Assembly: GCA_944324235.1 (NCBI GenBank)
Contig: CALUVN010000020.1
Location: 1 to 35,248, forward strand
Reading direction: 5' to 3'
Length of the DNA stretch: 35,248 nt
Source of the DNA: Candidatus Gastranaerophilales bacterium
GTDB lineage: Bacteria; Cyanobacteriota; Vampirovibrionia; Gastranaerophilales; Gastranaerophilaceae
Notes under the pieces: generated by a model
Databases searched by the model: none
Told to the model about the DNA's origin: nothing
What the model saw: only the letters and a program-made list of their open reading frames with translations
In this document: piece after piece, positions 6,124-30,664 of the stretch
How positions within the stretch are numbered: the first letter of the stretch is position 1
Layout: each line of letters begins with the position of its first letter
Position numbers and translations under genes: made by a program

Positions 6124-6858
6124 GTGAAAAAAAATTTGTTTGAGATATTTATAGCAAGGATAATGTCATTTCCTCTATGGGTCAGGCAGATAATTTATGT
6201 GCGCCTTGCGATGGATATGCGTAAGAATTTATGCGAAGAATTTATCAGAAGCAATGTTTCAAAGATTCTCGCGTTGTATTCCCCGATATTGACGTTTGAA
6301 GGCTCTACCGAACTCGCTGAACATAAATGCGGTTGGGATAGCAATATCTATAATTTTTTGCAATATTGTTCCGAAAATTTTTCCATCATTGATATTTCAA
6401 TAAGTTCGTATTTTTCAATGGAAGAGGTATCTAAATATTTGATATTCTGTATTGAACAGGGGTATGTCGAAGTGCCTAAGTCTAAAGAAGTTAATGCCAT
6501 GGCCAATTTCATTGCAGGTAAAACAAGATTAGGCGAATATTTTCTTGAACGCGGACTTATAAATGAAATGCAGCTTAATGATGTTTTGCTGGAGGTTGGT
6601 AAATATCCGTCAAAAATCGGAGAAGTGCTGCTCCAAAAAGGTTATATCGCAGAGAATGATTTGAAATCGGTCGTAATATTAAAAGAAGAATCAAAGAAAA
6701 GATTTATTCTTGATTTTTCAATGATACCTCAAGGTGTTACTTCCGTTTCTTATACTAAGGAAGAAACGGATGAACTGGCGGCTCTCAGAGATGAAAATAA
6801 AAAGTTGAAGTTAAAATTGGAAAGGCTTTTAAGTTTGGTGAAAAAAGATGAAGAATAA
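6124..6858 (+). CDS. Stand-alone MshEN-like (c-di-GMP-binding type) domain protein
   Basis: This 244-aa protein has no full-length family I can name. Residues 135-187 match the MshEN/GspE N-terminal fold. A 24-residue motif RLGEYFLERGLIN... (135-158) and a 5-residue spacer precede a second 24-residue motif KIGEVLLQKGYIA... (164-187). In MshE-type ATPases this paired arrangement binds cyclic di-GMP, although the terminal Gln of each motif is missing here. No Walker motifs or ATPase domain follow; instead residues 211-240 form a short charged coiled coil. The N-terminal 120 residues are unassigned and lack a clear membrane segment. Translation starts at GTG with a weak GAGAG site. It overlaps the asparaginase gene by 11 bases. 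Confidence 0.6.
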   Translation: MKKNLFEIFIARIMSFPLWVRQIIYVRLAMDMRKNLCEEFIRSNVSKILALYSPILTFEGSTELAEHKCGWDSNIYNFLQYCSENFSIIDISISSYFSMEEVSKYLIFCIEQGYVEVPKSKEVNAMANFIAGKTRLGEYFLERGLINEMQLNDVLLEVGKYPSKIGEVLLQKGYIAENDLKSVVILKEESKKRFILDFSMIPQGVTSVSYTKEETDELAALRDENKKLKLKLERLLSLVKKDEE

Positions 6859-7798
6859 CGAACCTCAATTACTGGTAGAATATTTAAGAGACGGACTTGC
6901 AGACGAAGAACATTACGGTTTTGTCGTTTTGTCAGATAAAGAACGTGCTTTCGATTTTACGGGAGACGATAAGAAATATCCTTTCTTCCTCCGGTCTTGC
7001 GGAAAACCTTTGCAGGCTGCTCTTTTGATAGATTACGGTATGGATATACGCTATAATATGACGGAAGAAGAAATTGCGCTATGCTGTGCCTCACATGCAG
7101 GTGAAGAGGTTCATGTAAATATTGCCAGAGGGCTTTTAGAAAAAATCGGACTTGATGAAAGCTATCTTAAATGCGGACTTTTGAAGCCGCTTTCCAAAAC
7201 CGAACAAATTAAGCTTGTTATGGAAAATAAGTCAGAAAATGTTCTTCAAAATAATTGCTCAGGAAAGCATATTATGATGCTGGGAATTTGCAAAATGAAC
7301 GATTGGAATCTTGCAACTTACGACGAGCCTGATCATCCGCTGCAAGTTGCAATAAGAAAAAAAATTACCGAACTTTGCGAACTTAAAAAAGAATATCCTG
7401 AAACAAAAGACGGATGCGGTGTTCCTATTATGGCAATGCCTCTGGAAAATATGCTCAAAGGTTATTTGAATCTTTTCTGTAATCCGCGTTATGAAAAGAT
7501 TAAAAATGCTTTTTTAAATCATCCGTACATTATCGGCGGCGAAGACAGAACAGATACAAAAATTATGGATTTAACAGATGGTATAGTGGCAAAAGTAGGC
7601 GCTGGCGGACTTTGTATTGTTGTTAATACAAAAGAAGAACAGGCTTTTGTTGTAAAAATTTCCGATTGCAACATGAAAGCAAGAGAACTTGTTGCTTTAA
7701 AATCTATTAATAATCTTCATTGGGGAGAAATTGAAATTCCTACTTCAATAAAGACAGCTCATGGCGATATTGTTGGTGAAATTAAAATTTATGCTTAA
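6848..7798 (+). CDS. ansA: L-asparaginase of the Rhizobium etli type (Asparaginase_II)
   Basis: This enzyme hydrolyses L-asparagine to aspartate and ammonia. It belongs to the family with a serine beta-lactamase-like fold that is unrelated to E. coli AnsA/AnsB. At 316 aa it is near normal family length. All the residues described for the R. etli enzyme can be placed. SCGK (Ser50, Lys53) and CASHAGE (Ser82) form the Ser-Lys centre. NCSGKH (Cys137, Lys140) and DGCGVP (Cys190) form the zinc site. There is no signal peptide, so it acts in the cytoplasm. It is translationally coupled to the upstream MshEN-like gene (11-base overlap) and followed by a strong terminator. The gene symbol is used loosely. 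Confidence 0.88.
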   Translation: MKNNEPQLLVEYLRDGLADEEHYGFVVLSDKERAFDFTGDDKKYPFFLRSCGKPLQAALLIDYGMDIRYNMTEEEIALCCASHAGEEVHVNIARGLLEKIGLDESYLKCGLLKPLSKTEQIKLVMENKSENVLQNNCSGKHIMMLGICKMNDWNLATYDEPDHPLQVAIRKKITELCELKKEYPETKDGCGVPIMAMPLENMLKGYLNLFCNPRYEKIKNAFLNHPYIIGGEDRTDTKIMDLTDGIVAKVGAGGLCIVVNTKEEQAFVVKISDCNMKARELVALKSINNLHWGEIEIPTSIKTAHGDIVGEIKIYA

Positions 7799-23891: not shown

Positions 23892-25805
23892 TTGAATTCA
23901 AAAAATATAAATAATTTAATATTAACACTGGCATTACTGGTGATGTGTCCTATGTATTCCCTTGCGGCAGATGATTTATGGGGAGACAAGAGCCTCAATT
24001 ATGATGTAAAAGATTCTCAGGTGGAAAGTACTGCTCCTGCACAAAATGAAAAAACTATTAAAGATATTGAAATTCATGGCGCAAATGTAGTTAATCCGGA
24101 AGATATTTTGACCAGAATGAATCTTAAAAAAGGCGGTACATACAACCGTGATATGCTGCAGACTGACCTTAGAACAATATATCAAATGGGTTATTTTTCC
24201 GAAAGAATGAAAGCTATTCCCGTAAAAAACTCAGACGGTACTATTACCCTAAAAATCATTGTGGAGGAAAATGCTCCTGTTACCGATTTTACCATAGAAG
24301 GTAATACGGTTGTTTCAACAGAAGAAATTCTTGAATTTTTGACTCCGATGAAAGGCAAGCCTCAGAATATTTCAAAGATAAATGAGGCGATTGCAAATAT
24401 TCAAGATTGTTATGCGTCAAGAGGTTATATTCTTGCAAGAATAGATTCTGTTACAGACGATCCTGACGGAACAATTAATATTGATATCAAAGAAGGAACT
24501 GTAGGTAAAATATTAATTTCCGGAAACGAAAAGACAAAAGATTTTGTAATAGAACGAAATGTTTTGATAGAACCGGGAATGGTTTATAACGAAAATCTTT
24601 TGAAAGAGGATTTGTCAAGGTTATACGCAACTCAGGCCTTCAAGAATGTAACCAGAGAAATTGAACCGGAAGAAGACAACCCTGATGTTTACGATATAAC
24701 AATTAGTGTAGAAGAACAAAGAACTGCAAGTATATCTGTAGGCGGCGGTTTGGATTCCGTAACAGGTGTATTCGGTTCTGCCGGTATTGCAGATAACAAC
24801 TTCCGCGGCAGAAATCAGAGATTATCCTTGAACGCCTTAGCCGGTACAGGTGTTATTCTTAGTGATGCAGCTATTAAAAGACGGATGAACCTGCAGGCTG
24901 AATTGAGTTTCTTTGAACCGTATTTTCTGAATGCAGATACTTCTTTAATGGCTAAAGTATTCTACAGAGACTTCGGCAGCTATCAGGTTCCGCTTGCAAT
25001 TGAACGCAGAATTGGCGGCGAAGCAACTATTGCCCATAGATTTAAGAAAAACAGACACCTGACTTCGACATTGTCACTCGGTGTTGAAAATATTAATGTC
25101 AGTGAAGGCGACTACGGAAAAATTTCAGGGATGTATAACAAATATAATATTCCGATTGCGGAACGTGCAAAACAATTGGAAGGCGGTCTGTTCCTGTCGA
25201 TAAGTCCTGCATTGATATATGACACAAGAGATTCTGCTGTTGTTACAAGACGAGGAACAATGGCAAGTTTACGTTTTGATGAAGAATTTGGTCTTGATGG
25301 CTTTGATAAAACTCACGGTAAGTTGTCAGGTATGATTAAGCAATACATACCGATTGCGAAAAAATCGTCCTTATCCTTCACAGTCAAAGGCGGCGGCAAA
25401 ATTCACGGCGACGATATGCCTGAAGTAATGGCGTACAGATTGGGCGGACCTTATACTATCAGAGGTTTTAAAATGAGCGGTGTAGGTACTGGTGATGCGT
25501 TCATTATGGGATCAGCAGAATTTGCAACTCCTATTCCGTTTTTGGATAGAACAAGAATTAATTTTCTGCATAACTTGAGATTTACAGTCTGGGTAGATGC
25601 AGGTAAAGTATTCAATGGTGCGGATGTTACAAATACGATATACGACAGACCGATGGAAGCAGTTACTGCCGGTATCGGTTTGAAACTGTATGTTCCTGGT
25701 ATGGGACCGTTGTCTATCGATTATGGTATTCCGCTTACAAATCCGGGTGAAAACGGTAACAGAAACGGATACTTTACATTTGGTGTAGGTGATATATTAT
25801 ATTAA
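23892..25805 (+). CDS. bamA: Outer membrane assembly factor BamA/Omp85
   Basis: BamA folds and inserts beta-barrel proteins into the outer membrane. The 637-aa precursor has a signal peptide (about 1-25) and a short linker. Three POTRA domains follow at about 56-126, 130-201 and 205-275, then a C-terminal barrel (280-637) with the loop-6 motif YTIRGF and a terminal strand ending GVGDILY. Proteobacterial BamA has five POTRA domains; three is the cyanobacterial arrangement. The start is TTG: AAGGGA lies upstream, and the signal peptide needs this N terminus. ompH begins 26 bases downstream, the classical bamA-skp pairing. Confidence 0.93.
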   Translation: MNSKNINNLILTLALLVMCPMYSLAADDLWGDKSLNYDVKDSQVESTAPAQNEKTIKDIEIHGANVVNPEDILTRMNLKKGGTYNRDMLQTDLRTIYQMGYFSERMKAIPVKNSDGTITLKIIVEENAPVTDFTIEGNTVVSTEEILEFLTPMKGKPQNISKINEAIANIQDCYASRGYILARIDSVTDDPDGTINIDIKEGTVGKILISGNEKTKDFVIERNVLIEPGMVYNENLLKEDLSRLYATQAFKNVTREIEPEEDNPDVYDITISVEEQRTASISVGGGLDSVTGVFGSAGIADNNFRGRNQRLSLNALAGTGVILSDAAIKRRMNLQAELSFFEPYFLNADTSLMAKVFYRDFGSYQVPLAIERRIGGEATIAHRFKKNRHLTSTLSLGVENINVSEGDYGKISGMYNKYNIPIAERAKQLEGGLFLSISPALIYDTRDSAVVTRRGTMASLRFDEEFGLDGFDKTHGKLSGMIKQYIPIAKKSSLSFTVKGGGKIHGDDMPEVMAYRLGGPYTIRGFKMSGVGTGDAFIMGSAEFATPIPFLDRTRINFLHNLRFTVWVDAGKVFNGADVTNTIYDRPMEAVTAGIGLKLYVPGMGPLSIDYGIPLTNPGENGNRNGYFTFGVGDILY

Positions 25806-25831: not shown

Positions 25832-26290
25832 ATGAAAAAATTTGGATTGGCAGCAATTGCACTTACCGCAGGTCTGTTTTTCTCACTCGGCACAAATGCT
25901 GATGCCGCCGGCGTAGGATATATTAACTACGCTAAAGTTCAGGACAACTATTCTTTTGCGCAAGCCGCAATTAAAGAAATTGATGCAAAAGCCCTTGAAC
26001 TTCAACAATACATGGTCGATAAAGAAAAACAATACAAAGCTCTTGATACACCGTTGAAAAAACAAAATTTTGAAGAACAAACTGCAAGAGAATTCAAAAC
26101 AAAAGAACAAGCCTTAATGACATTAAGAGCACAAAAGGAAGAACAGGTTTACAACAAAATTCAAGCAGCAACCAAACAGGTTCTTGTAGAACAAAAGCTT
26201 GATGCAGTTGTAGATTTCCGCGTAATTTTTGTCGGTGGTGTTGATATTACCGATTTGGTAATCCAAAAACTCAAATCAGGCACTTTTTAA
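25832..26290 (+). CDS. ompH: OmpH/Skp-family periplasmic chaperone
   Basis: The 152-aa precursor has a signal peptide ending near ADAAG (about residue 26). The mature protein opens with the family strand VGYINYAKVQ. A long charged coiled-coil hairpin (about 45-120) and a short hydrophobic C-terminal body (VDFRVIFVGGVDITD) follow. Skp trimers hold unfolded outer-membrane proteins on their way to BamA, the gene immediately upstream. AAGGAGGA precedes the ATG. udp follows after 9 bases. Confidence 0.85.
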   Translation: MKKFGLAAIALTAGLFFSLGTNADAAGVGYINYAKVQDNYSFAQAAIKEIDAKALELQQYMVDKEKQYKALDTPLKKQNFEEQTAREFKTKEQALMTLRAQKEEQVYNKIQAATKQVLVEQKLDAVVDFRVIFVGGVDITDLVIQKLKSGTF

Positions 26291-26299
26291 GGAGCTGCA

Positions 26300-27070
26300 A
26301 TGAATTATTCAGAAGACGGCAGACAGTATCATATAGGACTGAAAGAAGGCGATGCAGGCAGGTATGTAATCCTGCCCGGCGACCCTAAACGCTGCGTTAA
26401 AATTGCACAATATTTTGACGATGCGAAACTTGTCGCGGATAACCGTGAATACACAACTTATACAGGCTATCTGAACGGAGAAAAAGTCAGCGTTACGTCA
26501 ACCGGAATCGGCGGGCCTTCAGCCTCTATTGCGCTGGAAGAACTTGTGAATATAGGTGCTGATACTTTTATAAGAGTCGGCACATGCGGCGGTATTGATA
26601 TTAACGTAAAAGGCGGAGATTTAGTAATTGCAACAGGCGCAATTCGTATGGAAGGGACTTCCAGAGAGTATGCTCCTATAGAATTTCCTGCCGTGGCTGA
26701 TATTGATATTGTAAATGCTCTCATAGAAGCCGCAGGAATGTCCGGTACGGATTATCATGCAGGTGTTGTTCAATGTAAAGATTCTTTCTACGGACAGCAT
26801 AATCCTGAAAGTATGCCTGTAAGTTATGAACTTACAAATAAGTGGGAAGCATGGAAACGTCTCGGCTGTCTGGCTTCAGAAATGGAATCTGCCGCATTAT
26901 TTATCACCGGCAGTTACAGGAGAGTTAAAGTCGGGTCAATATTTTTGACAGTTGCTAATCAGGAAAGAGAAAAAGCCGGTCTGGATAATCCTGTTATTCA
27001 CGATACGGATAAAGCTATAAAAACTGCTGTCGAGGCTTTAAAAATTCTCATCGCAAAAAATAAAAAATAA
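26300..27070 (+). CDS. udp: Uridine phosphorylase
   Basis: Udp cleaves uridine with phosphate to uracil and ribose-1-phosphate, feeding upp for salvage or releasing sugar for catabolism. The 256-aa protein shows the family nucleotide phosphorylase blocks. ILPGDPKR comes near the N terminus, followed by [18 protein letters not shown] and the uridine-specific [15 protein letters not shown], with SEMESAALF for ribose binding. The motif order and length match hexameric Udp and not the trimeric PNP at 12081. It lies in the bamA-ompH operon with very short spacing (AAGGAG site), a grouping with no obvious functional logic. Confidence 0.92.
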
Positions 27071-27083
27071 GGAGTTGTTCATA

Positions 27084-28559
27084 ATGTATAACAAAAAAAT
27101 GCAGTATGTTATAAGAACCTGTTCCAGTGAAAATCCTCAGGAACTTCAAAATCTTTTGAACGAAATGTCCATGAACGGCTGGGAACTGTATAGTATGAAT
27201 GAAGTTGAATCGGATGACGGCTTCAAATTTAACTGTATTTTTATGAGCGAAGCTAAATCGGATGACTCTGACAAAAATGCTGATGTGATAAATATATCAA
27301 CATTCAAAAGCCAGATGGAAAAGATGCTTTCTCCTGAATTGACTCCTTATGAAAACTGTATTGAGATACAATCTAAAATCCGTGCTCAAAAAGGTAATAT
27401 CGCCAAAATTAAAAAAGAACTTGAAGGTGAAGCTCCTGCATCTGTCGGCAGAAAAAAACTGAATGATAAAATCTCCGCAGGCTTGAAAGAACTTGATGAA
27501 TTGAAAGTAAAACTTGCTAAAGCAACATCTCCTGATGTTATGTACTCAAGGCTAAAGGAAGATAAACTTGCAATTCATTTGAGTGAAGAACTTCTTGATT
27601 ATGTTGATCCGGATACGGAAATTACAGGTGAAGATTTGCTCTCTGAAACCGTCAAGTCCCGTCTTAAATTGACGGATGAACTCGGTTATGTCATCCCGAA
27701 AATTGTTTTTCAAGATGATGAAAACCTTAATCCGTTTGAGTTTTGTATTAAGGTTCGCGGCGTAAATGTTTACAGCGCAATGACTTATCCTAATTATGTG
27801 ATGTTTTTTACCGATGACATTCACCTTGACAAAAAAATAAAAAATACCATAAAAGATGTCGATATCATCACAGGCAGACCAATCATCTGGATAGAAAAGG
27901 ACAGAACAAAAGATTTCTGGGAAAAAGGCATAAACGGTGCTGAATTTATAGCCCGTGCACTTGAATATGTTGCGGTAAAACATGTTGATGAACTTTTGGA
28001 TTACAATGATGTTGAGAAATATGTAGAAATTGTAAACCGCAAAAATGAATTTCTTGTAGAAAATATTATTCCGGATTTTATAAATTTATCAGATTTAAGA
28101 TTTATCTTAACCAGCCTAATCAAAGAGCACGTCTCGGTTAGAGACATTACATACATTTTTGAACAGATGAATGATTATGCCGAAGACAGTTCAAAAATTG
28201 ATTTGTTGAAAAAAATTCGCTTGACATTATCGCGTCAAATTTGTAATAATTATATTAACGAAGACGGAGTGATGTCTGTTTTTGAATTAACAGACAAAAC
28301 AATAGATTCACTGGTAGAAAATTTTGATGAAACCGACGATGTAGTTCGTATCAACGGTGAATTCGCAGAGAAAATCGCAGAAAAAATTAACAAAAAAGCA
28401 GAACAGTTAGGTCTTGAAGAAAGTGTCAAATTAATAGTTCCAATGGAATACAGACATTTATTATTTACATTGTTATCAAATTATGTAAGGGATATAGCAG
28501 TATTGGCCAGGGAGGAAATAGGATGTAATTGTCAGTTGGAGATTTTAGCATCAATTTAA
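27084..28559 (+). CDS. Soluble FlhA/FHIPEP C-terminal-domain protein with DUF4177-like N terminus
   Basis: The 491-aa protein has no membrane segment. Residues 6-56 (QYVIRTC...MNGWELYSM...CIFMS) resemble DUF4177, and a charged coiled-coil region (about 85-150) follows. From about 185 to 491 the sequence follows the cytoplasmic domain of FlhA/SctV export-gate proteins block by block. The blocks are ELGYVIPKIVFQDD, CIKVRGVNV, RPIIWIEK, FLVENIIPDFINLSDLR, IKEHVSVRDITYIFEQM, LTLSRQI, and a final strand-helix near VPMEYRHLLFTLL. The N-terminal channel half of FlhA is absent. AAGGAG selects ATG 27084; an in-frame TTG at 27075 abuts that site. It follows udp by 13 bases in the bamA operon. No flagellar or type III secretion genes are nearby, so function is open. 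Confidence 0.75.
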   Translation: MYNKKMQYVIRTCSSENPQELQNLLNEMSMNGWELYSMNEVESDDGFKFNCIFMSEAKSDDSDKNADVINISTFKSQMEKMLSPELTPYENCIEIQSKIRAQKGNIAKIKKELEGEAPASVGRKKLNDKISAGLKELDELKVKLAKATSPDVMYSRLKEDKLAIHLSEELLDYVDPDTEITGEDLLSETVKSRLKLTDELGYVIPKIVFQDDENLNPFEFCIKVRGVNVYSAMTYPNYVMFFTDDIHLDKKIKNTIKDVDIITGRPIIWIEKDRTKDFWEKGINGAEFIARALEYVAVKHVDELLDYNDVEKYVEIVNRKNEFLVENIIPDFINLSDLRFILTSLIKEHVSVRDITYIFEQMNDYAEDSSKIDLLKKIRLTLSRQICNNYINEDGVMSVFELTDKTIDSLVENFDETDDVVRINGEFAEKIAEKINKKAEQLGLEESVKLIVPMEYRHLLFTLLSNYVRDIAVLAREEIGCNCQLEILASI

Positions 28560-28627: not shown

Positions 28628-30664
28628 ATGCAAGTTAGTGGAATTAGGAACAGTAACATGGGACAATCCGTCGTGTTTGGTCGGCGTCCGACCCGCGCAG
28701 AAGAACCTTTTGTGCATAACACGATGAACAGAGCTTACGATTTTATGGGAACGAAGGAAAGAGCTGTTATTACTCACGGCTCATGTTTTCCAGCTTATGA
28801 CAGAAATACAAATATAGGTTCTCCATACGGGAACGGTGCAAAAGAGTGGACAAAATTTCTTGCGCTATATGGATTTAATGCACAGCAATTAGGACCGGGC
28901 GGAGAGTTGGAAAAAGGAGTGAATTCTCCTTACAAATCCTCAGCTTTTGCAAAAAATAGATTATTTATAGATTTGTTGGATTTGACAGGCGACAAGTACG
29001 GAAATCTTTTGTCTGAAGAAACATATAATAATGTTACAAAACCGCTTGAGATTACGGACAAAAATTATGAACGTACTGATTTTGATGCTGCTGATGCAAC
29101 CTATGATATAGCACTAAAAGAAGTTTATAAAAACTTCCGTAAAAATCTTGCCAAGTATCAACCGCAGGCGGTTGCTCTTGATAGAGAGTACAGTGCTTTT
29201 TTGAAAAAAAATGATGACAGGTTAACGGACGAGGGGATTTTTAAAGTTCTCTCCGATAAATACGGGACAGATGATTATGAAAGCTGGTCAGATTTGGATC
29301 ATCATCTGATTAGTCGTGTTGACCGCGGTGATGTTGATGCTGTACTTCATTACAAAGATTTATACAAATACAATAAAAATTCTATTGAGCAATATAAATT
29401 TGAACAATTTTTAATTACAAAACAAATCAAAGAAAACAAAGAGTGGCGTCAACAAATCGGTATGAAAAATATAAATGATTTGCTGGTTGGTTGCTCTAAA
29501 ATGGATGCGTGGCGATATGAAGACGCATTCCTCGACGATTGGGAAATGGGCGCACGTGAAAACAACAAACCTTCCCAGCGCTGGGGTATCAAAGTTCTTG
29601 ACCCTAAGAAAATTTTCAAAAACGGCAGATATGAATTAAATATCGGCGGTGAATTTTTGAAAGAAAAAATAGAAGCTGCTTTAGAATTTAATGAAGGTAT
29701 CAGAGTTGACCATGTTATGGGGCTTATTGAACCTTATATAATGAAGAAAAGCGCAAAAGACGAGGATTTCTTCACATATCCGCCTCATAATAAAAATAAC
29801 AATATCGAAAAATATATATCAGAATTAAAAAATCCTGAAAATCCGTATGAAGAATACGACAAATACTGGGATTATCCAAAACTTCTGGAACATCTTGTTC
29901 TTCCGCTTTTTGAAAGCAAAGGCGTGCATAAAGAAGATGCAGTATGGGAGGATGTCTGCACATATCCTGAACGTTTCAAACAGGTCTATTCAAAACTTCA
30001 GCTTCCTAAAATAACAAATATTGATTGGGAGCGTGCAGAAGATGTAATTAACGAGGGCGGACATAATAACTGGTTTGTAATAAGCACCCACGATCAGGGA
30101 GCTACCATGAATTATTTGAAACGCATCGGAGACCTGCGCAATGGCAGCAAAGGCGAATACACAAGAGAATCAAGACCATGGAATGTCGATTATCTTGCCG
30201 GATATCTGAATATGGATGATACACGTCCTAATATTGCTAAAATTCGTGAAGAACGTAAAAATCTTTATTTAAACAATGACAGGGAATGGACATTTGCAAA
30301 ATTCTCGGAACTTTTGACAACTCCTAAGTTCCAGATTTCCCACGATGACTTGCTGGGAATTACAGATGAAGATGCCGTGTATAACGTTCCTGGTACAAAT
30401 AATGACACTAACTGGAAAGAGCGTATTACACCTGATTTTCTGGATAAATACTATGACAACCTGTCAAGCGATAATCCTACAGCCTTGAATATGCCTGAAC
30501 GTGTTAAGGAAGCTTTGCAGGCTAAAATAGATATGCAGGTTAAAGCACACAATTATGATGCTGATTTCAAACGCGAAATTTACGAAAAAGCACAACCAAT
30601 TCTTAATGATTTGGATGTAATAATTGGTATTTTGAAAGAAAAAGACCCAGCAGACAAAGTTTAG
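28628..30664 (+). CDS. malQ: Divergent 4-alpha-glucanotransferase (GH77, MalQ-like)
   Basis: MalQ moves alpha-1,4-glucan segments between acceptors in glycogen or maltodextrin metabolism. The 678-aa protein is longer than typical MalQ (about 500). Family blocks are recognisable: QQLGPGG then SPYKSSAFAKN (99-109), KFEQFLITKQI, NDLLVG, QRWG (317-320) and IRVDHVMGL with the likely nucleophile Asp361. Also visible are WEDVCTYPE with the likely acid/base Glu441, and STHDQGAT with Asp489. Insertions lie around 120-250 and 375-415, and the C-terminal tail after 500 is unusual. The N terminus has an isolated VVFGRRP segment. An AGGGG site lies 12 bases before the ATG. Function as a glucanotransferase is likely; substrate preference is unknown. 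Confidence 0.75.
   Translation: MQVSGIRNSNMGQSVVFGRRPTRAEEPFVHNTMNRAYDFMGTKERAVITHGSCFPAYDRNTNIGSPYGNGAKEWTKFLALYGFNAQQLGPGGELEKGVNSPYKSSAFAKNRLFIDLLDLTGDKYGNLLSEETYNNVTKPLEITDKNYERTDFDAADATYDIALKEVYKNFRKNLAKYQPQAVALDREYSAFLKKNDDRLTDEGIFKVLSDKYGTDDYESWSDLDHHLISRVDRGDVDAVLHYKDLYKYNKNSIEQYKFEQFLITKQIKENKEWRQQIGMKNINDLLVGCSKMDAWRYEDAFLDDWEMGARENNKPSQRWGIKVLDPKKIFKNGRYELNIGGEFLKEKIEAALEFNEGIRVDHVMGLIEPYIMKKSAKDEDFFTYPPHNKNNNIEKYISELKNPENPYEEYDKYWDYPKLLEHLVLPLFESKGVHKEDAVWEDVCTYPERFKQVYSKLQLPKITNIDWERAEDVINEGGHNNWFVISTHDQGATMNYLKRIGDLRNGSKGEYTRESRPWNVDYLAGYLNMDDTRPNIAKIREERKNLYLNNDREWTFAKFSELLTTPKFQISHDDLLGITDEDAVYNVPGTNNDTNWKERITPDFLDKYYDNLSSDNPTALNMPERVKEALQAKIDMQVKAHNYDADFKREIYEKAQPILNDLDVIIGILKEKDPADKV

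Follow-up and report, generated by a model that had tools for sequence, protein, structure and literature searches.

FlhX is a standalone C-terminal domain of FlhB, which is present in some flagellates. In FlhA of Salmonella, residues D456, F459 and T490 belong to the chaperone-binding dimple, and G368 lies within the switch for domain motion (PMC8166844, PMC9431611). The flagellar gene set shared by the Gastranaerophilales has been interpreted as a flagellum being lost (PMC4040986, PMC3787301), and a non-flagellar type III secretion system (T3SS) of the Myxococcales type is mentioned in PMC9380563. Here, we describe a gene of Candidatus Gastranaerophilales, gut cyanobacteria that do not photosynthesize, that encodes the cytoplasmic part of the export-gate protein FlhA (FlhA-C) alone, as a soluble protein of 491 aa. 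The gene was found in a window of 35,248 nt, i.e. the whole stretch of DNA that was analyzed.

Results

The soluble protein comprises a complete FlhA cytoplasmic domain and a new N-terminus

The relevant features of the window are as follows (basis of assignment in parentheses):

23892-25805, +: bamA, upstream of the soluble FlhA-C gene
25832-26290, +: ompH/skp-like gene, upstream of the soluble FlhA-C gene
26300-27070, +: udp-like gene, upstream of the soluble FlhA-C gene
27069-27074, +: AAGGAG, ribosome-binding-site-like, 9 nt 5' of the ATG (sequence)
27084-28559, +: standalone FlhA cytoplasmic-domain protein, 491 aa (ORF, profile match, AF2 model, structure comparison)
27099-27251, +: N-terminal strand-helix-strand-strand domain, weakly DUF4177-like, residues 6-56 (AF2 model, profile)
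27345-27524, +: antiparallel helical hairpin, residues 88-147 (AF2 models)
27531-27563, +: residues 150-160, what is left of the FlhA linker, including the A-type signature Pro-x-x-Met (alignment)
27582-27584, +: Ser167 at the position of Gly368 of the GYXLI switch (Gly in all sampled FlhA of type A, type B and E. coli)
27861-27956, +: former chaperone-binding dimple; Asp260 kept (D456), Thr263 (F459), Arg265 (L461), Arg291 (T490)
27996-28232, +: D3-equivalent, residues 305-383, best conserved versus type A
28233-28553, +: D4-equivalent, residues 384-490, with the greatest divergence when set against the A-B baseline

The first-pass annotation of 27084-28559 had recognized the cytoplasmic domain of FlhA/SctV from residue ~185 to 491 and had noted that the membrane half is missing. 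Both claims hold. Positions 315-654 (of 657) of the FHIPEP profile PF00771 align with residues 144-481 (E=1.6e-51; 176 bits at a cut-off of 29.1 bits), and residues 144-490 represent the complete FlhA cytoplasmic domain. Profile positions 1-314, which cover the N-terminal transmembrane export-gate half, remain unmatched, and the protein contains no membrane segment (maximum Kyte-Doolittle-19 value of 1.28). With the FlhA equivalog model TIGR01398 the protein scores 162.3 bits, below the curated cut-off of 772.1. The top solved relative by sequence is FlhA-C of B. subtilis (3mix, 2.7e-27).

The AlphaFold2 (AF2) model, for which the window protein and its relatives served as input (43 sequences), reached a pLDDT of 83 and a pTM of 0.66. 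It consists of the strand-helix-strand-strand domain (residues 6-56), a low-confidence stretch, the hairpin (residues 88-147) and the FlhA-C fold. Foldseek retrieved 6ch2_C with this model (2.5e-22), and on a DALI scale it matched nonameric Vibrio FlhA (7amy) with Z 30.2 over 338 residues at 3.2 Å, followed by 6ch1 (Z 29.8) and several other FlhA-C and SctV-C chains at about 28-30.

In place of the membrane half, a DUF4177-like domain plus coiled coil had been suggested. The replacement by a new domain and a helical hairpin is borne out, but the likeness to DUF4177 is weakly supported: PF13783 matches 13 of the 27 family members (best E=0.0021; window protein E=0.083), all below the gathering score of 25. 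The domain is family-specific and conserved among the homologues. When it was compared with the PDB on its own, no match passed E ≤ 0.001, the lowest Foldseek E being 0.009, and the comparison therefore yields no function. The hairpin reaches Z of about 10, as is the case for common arrangements.

The soluble gene is conserved throughout the order

Homologues of the soluble gene are present in 92/97 genomes of the family Gastranaerophilaceae. A profile search of the class, the counts of which were read from the search tables, detected the gene in 192 of the 193 Gastranaerophilales genomes with FlhA hits, which belong to four families (f1-f4); the 42 FlhA-bearing genomes from other orders yielded no match. 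Named relatives are largely Candidatus Gastranaerophilales. Between congeners, dN/dS of the whole protein is 0.04-0.08, with low dN in each of its three parts, i.e. the gene is under purifying selection. The soluble FlhA-C protein is a real, conserved gene of the order.

Truncation alone would speak for a relic or an assembly artefact, i.e. a piece of a split flhA. However, an intact flhA of 701 aa is located on another contig of the same genome (G000, 99.8% complete) and the window holds no FlhA N-terminal half, which rules out a split or misassembled gene. As conservation with low dN/dS extends over the order and the family-specific N-terminal domain is kept, a fragment is hardly conceivable. 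The two objections that had been foreseen, lack of a PF00771 match and a fragmented flhA, are thereby answered by the strong match and the intact full-length gene.

Two types of full-length FlhA and the A-type apparatus

By score, the full-length FlhA proteins of the class form two main groups, A with about 670-740 bits and B with about 855-885 bits, and f7 lies between them. In 30 genomes checked, flagellin was restricted to those with B or to f7, and the P-ring protein FlgI occurred exclusively alongside B (8/20). Genomes with a complete flagellum hold both A and B, and A is present even without flagellin. The A-bearing genomes G002 (98% complete), G003 and G089 show no soluble copy, which possibly reflects assembly gaps, because congeners of G002 and G089 carry the gene. 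Matches in G100 that resembled FlhA-C alone were discarded as contig-end fragments.

The window genome carries type A alone, with zero matches to flagellin (PF00669) and FlgI (PF02119). A distant export apparatus had been considered in the first-pass annotation, and its flhB and fliPQR genes are indeed represented: the export core detected by HMM comprises FlhA, FliP, FlhB and FliI (544 bits, above the curated cut-off), and FliQ- and FliR-like ORFs, assigned by position and because they resemble the Pfam-tested copies of G009 in sequence, adjoin fliP (L147). FliH, FliO and a SpoA protein are also present, as are FliJ- and FliK-like proteins, both under the Pfam cut-off, four FlgB/C/F/G-like rod proteins and one FlgE/F/G-like protein. 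FliE and FliF were found in the A operons of relatives; the contig of the window genome ends before reaching them. The loci are:

A-type apparatus of the window genome: C55 (L063), C19 (L147), C10 (L345), C5 (L343), C22 (L348), C18 (L349)

In relatives, the A operon has the order fliE-fliF-(FliG-like)-fliH-flhA, with rod genes at its start in f2/f3. Its third gene, in the interval between fliF and fliH (L066:6233-7249 and equivalents), matches no Pfam family above cut-off; it may encode a divergent FliG, which is suspected because of its position and a weak MgtE_N match.

A near-complete A set (FliEFHIJ, FlhAB, FliOPQR, SpoA, rod proteins) is kept across the greater part of the class, including genomes with true flagella. 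Because A co-exists with B in flagellated genomes, the A set looks like a second, flagellin-less apparatus of the secretion type that is retained, with secretion being putative, rather than a decaying flagellum. Apparently, the literature that we found holds no description of it as a separate system. Di Rienzi et al. list a second flhA among the shared genes, which by our guess is the soluble FlhA-C gene.

Origin of the soluble protein and fate of its functional sites

In the FlhA-C tree, all 25 soluble homologues form one clade (100/99). This clade and two A-like FlhA-C paralogues attach to the A side (83/97), while B and E. coli stand apart (100/100). The soluble protein is thus most likely a duplicated, repurposed cytoplasmic domain of A-type FlhA; descent from A is likely rather than certain, because the joining branch is moderately supported. 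Soluble homologues share the linker signature Pro351/Met354 with type A but not with type B, and lack the linker Trp354, as type A does.

Separate FlhA-C proteins exist in some genera besides the soluble clade:

L158:5042-6823, -: FlhA-C-only protein
L159:5567-6424: FlhA-C-only protein
L160:5037-5684, -, and 6804-7520: FlhA-C-only proteins
L161:3001-3750, -: FlhA-C-only protein

G013 encodes a protein of 593 aa, the N-terminus of which matches the FliG-like protein of the A operon (3.7e-20), followed by hydrophobic stretches and FlhA-C without D2; G024 and G025 encode FlhA-C half proteins of 215-285 aa. Separate FlhA-C proteins have therefore arisen more than once. Near two of the half proteins, a 339-aa ORF (G025:C10:31495-31788; L160) shows a weak match to the FlhB C-terminus (23.8 bits).

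Most of the 25 homologues retain D456 (Salmonella/E. coli numbering), but F459 is replaced by T, S or N, L461 is usually K or R and T490 mostly K or R. Types A and B possess an aromatic residue at 459 and T490; a few sequences of f8/f9 and one or two more deviate. Gly368 is changed to S in nearly all homologues, and is G in every A and B sampled. As the dimple residues are gone, a role as docking ring for export chaperones, which the first-pass annotation had implied, is not supported. D3 of the soluble homologues is 36.6% identical with that of type A (A versus B, 34.2%), whereas identity in D4 drops to 17.4% (A versus B, 33.4%). Thus, the ring-associated D3 is the best-preserved part and the docking surface has been lost; ring formation itself is putative.

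The bamA-ompH neighborhood is confined to close relatives

The bamA-ompH-udp setting that had been noted is real and its order is conserved: about 75/80 close relatives exhibit rsmI-bamA-ompH-(udp or a 436-aa gene)-soluble gene, often with malQ next. The soluble gene probably shares an operon with bamA and ompH. Its location differs in f2-f4 and in genera further away, where its neighbors are mostly unrelated genes. In G281 and G284, two f3 genomes of one genus, it lies directly upstream of fliJ-fliK-flgD-flgE with a gap of 146 bp; these neighbors look flagellar (B), not A. In its own genome the soluble gene has no A-system neighbor, and linkage to A-type genes is not conserved across genomes. 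In some genomes the distance to A-type genes is below chance expectation, but this clustering is weak: 7/62 pairs of A gene and soluble gene lie within 25 kb versus about 1.6 expected, and the genomes are phylogenetically non-independent.

An N-terminal leader motif

Some proteins, including MalQ homologues, begin with an N/S/T-rich leader ending in xxF[KG]:

Window 28628-30664; L302:6892; L301:11747; L147:11032, -; and others: leader-bearing proteins

A first count, in which redundant ORFs were kept, gave no enrichment in the family. The pattern [NST][IVL][SN]F[KGSTQR] within residues 1-40, defined post hoc, occurred in 12/468 non-redundant ORFs versus 2, 1 and 0 in other residue ranges. On fresh stretches, the same expression returned 1/179 versus 0/153, which is not significant, and the leader was therefore rejected as a mark of A-system substrates.

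Discussion

Tentatively, we lean towards the soluble protein being an auxiliary partner of the gate or ring of the A system that does not dock chaperones. It would work with the A-type flagellin-less T3SS of the flagellar type, and its kept D3 would mediate self-oligomerization or packing against the cytoplasmic ring of FlhA-A. With the dimple and the GYXLI glycine lost, chaperone-substrate complexes would not be received by the soluble protein itself, and the N-terminal domain and the hairpin may act as an adaptor that controls gate access or gate state. Contact with FlhA-A, the oligomeric state and the direction of regulation are what we infer. The placement of the clade beside A, the A-type linker signature, the co-occurrence with A, the similarity of D3 to A, which is as high as that between A and B, and the export core in the own genome argue for an A partner, as do the fusion of an A-operon protein domain to FlhA-C in G013 and the adjacency to fliJ in f3. 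The soluble gene is also carried by genomes without flagellin or P-ring and therefore does not depend on a flagellum there. Against an A partner speak the bamA-ompH-udp operon in the own genome and most close relatives, the lack of a copy in A-bearing G002, G003 and G089, and the B-like appearance of the f3 neighbors. Among the roles considered in the first-pass annotation, a regulator of a distant apparatus fits best, because a flagellin-less export set is present in the genome and the gene branches beside the FlhA of this set; a repurposed ring scaffold is compatible, given the best-preserved D3 and the missing chaperone dimple, whereas a system of its own is unsupported for the gene alone.

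The main rival assumes that the FlhA-C fold has become a scaffold independent of secretion, recruited for a task in the envelope or in housekeeping that is linked to bamA and ompH. The gene order in about 75/80 close relatives, the lack of A-system neighbors in the own genome and the loss of functional FlhA sites are consistent with such a task. However, the bamA-ompH operon is confined to part of the family, with the gene being elsewhere in distant genera and f2-f4, and every checked genome carrying the soluble gene has A-type export genes, leaving this explanation somewhat doubtful. Alternatively, linker and D4 might bind FliJ and FliI and titrate both from the membrane gate, the protein acting as soluble competitor or carrier for both T3SS types where present. 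In Salmonella, FliJ is known to bind the linker of FlhA and the cleft between its D4 domains (PMC8166844), and the soluble gene adjoins fliJ in two f3 genomes. We consider a competitor quite unlikely, since D4 is the most diverged domain relative to the baseline, the adjacency is limited to one genus and includes the 146-bp gap, and Trp354 of the linker is absent, as in A. Also highly doubtful is a soluble homomeric nonamer that adds a second ring layer, below the FlhA-A ring or encircling it, and widens the substrate range: D3 is kept, the best structural match is nonameric FlhA and some genera possess other separate FlhA-C duplicates, but the chaperone dimple is lost.

An A partner could, in its boldest and unlikely form, mean a new two-component export gate: a second, rod-bearing and flagellin-less type III secretion machine, the gate ring of which would contain a dedicated soluble FlhA-C paralogue, either mixed in or stacked, and would work without docking of chaperones. 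Over the entire order, the ring part of the gate is naturally separated from the membrane part, which makes a role of FlhA-C apart from translocation testable. The data further suggest that gut Melainabacteria retain, in their 'incomplete flagella', a separate apparatus of the secretion type, which bears on interactions of these commensals with their hosts and with other microbes.

Comparison with known systems

Like the Myxococcales-type T3SS, the A system has flagellar-type export genes without a flagellum, but from a cursory comparison it differs by retaining rod proteins, FliE and FliO. The papers on 'partial flagellar gene sets' (PMC4040986, PMC3787301) deal with Gastranaerophilales as well, but read a reduced flagellum, whereas here a separate type-A set emerges, which is found also beside complete flagella. 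With FlhX the soluble protein shares the principle of an export-gate cytoplasmic domain as a separate gene. Unlike FlhX, it is derived from FlhA, is much larger, is fused to new domains and occurs in genomes without flagellin. With FlhA-C and SctV-C it shares the fold (Z 30 across about 340 residues), the D1-D4 layout, D3 motifs and the linker end; it differs by lacking the membrane half, the GYXLI glycine and the chaperone dimple, by its extra N-terminal domain and hairpin, and by the location of its gene apart from export genes.
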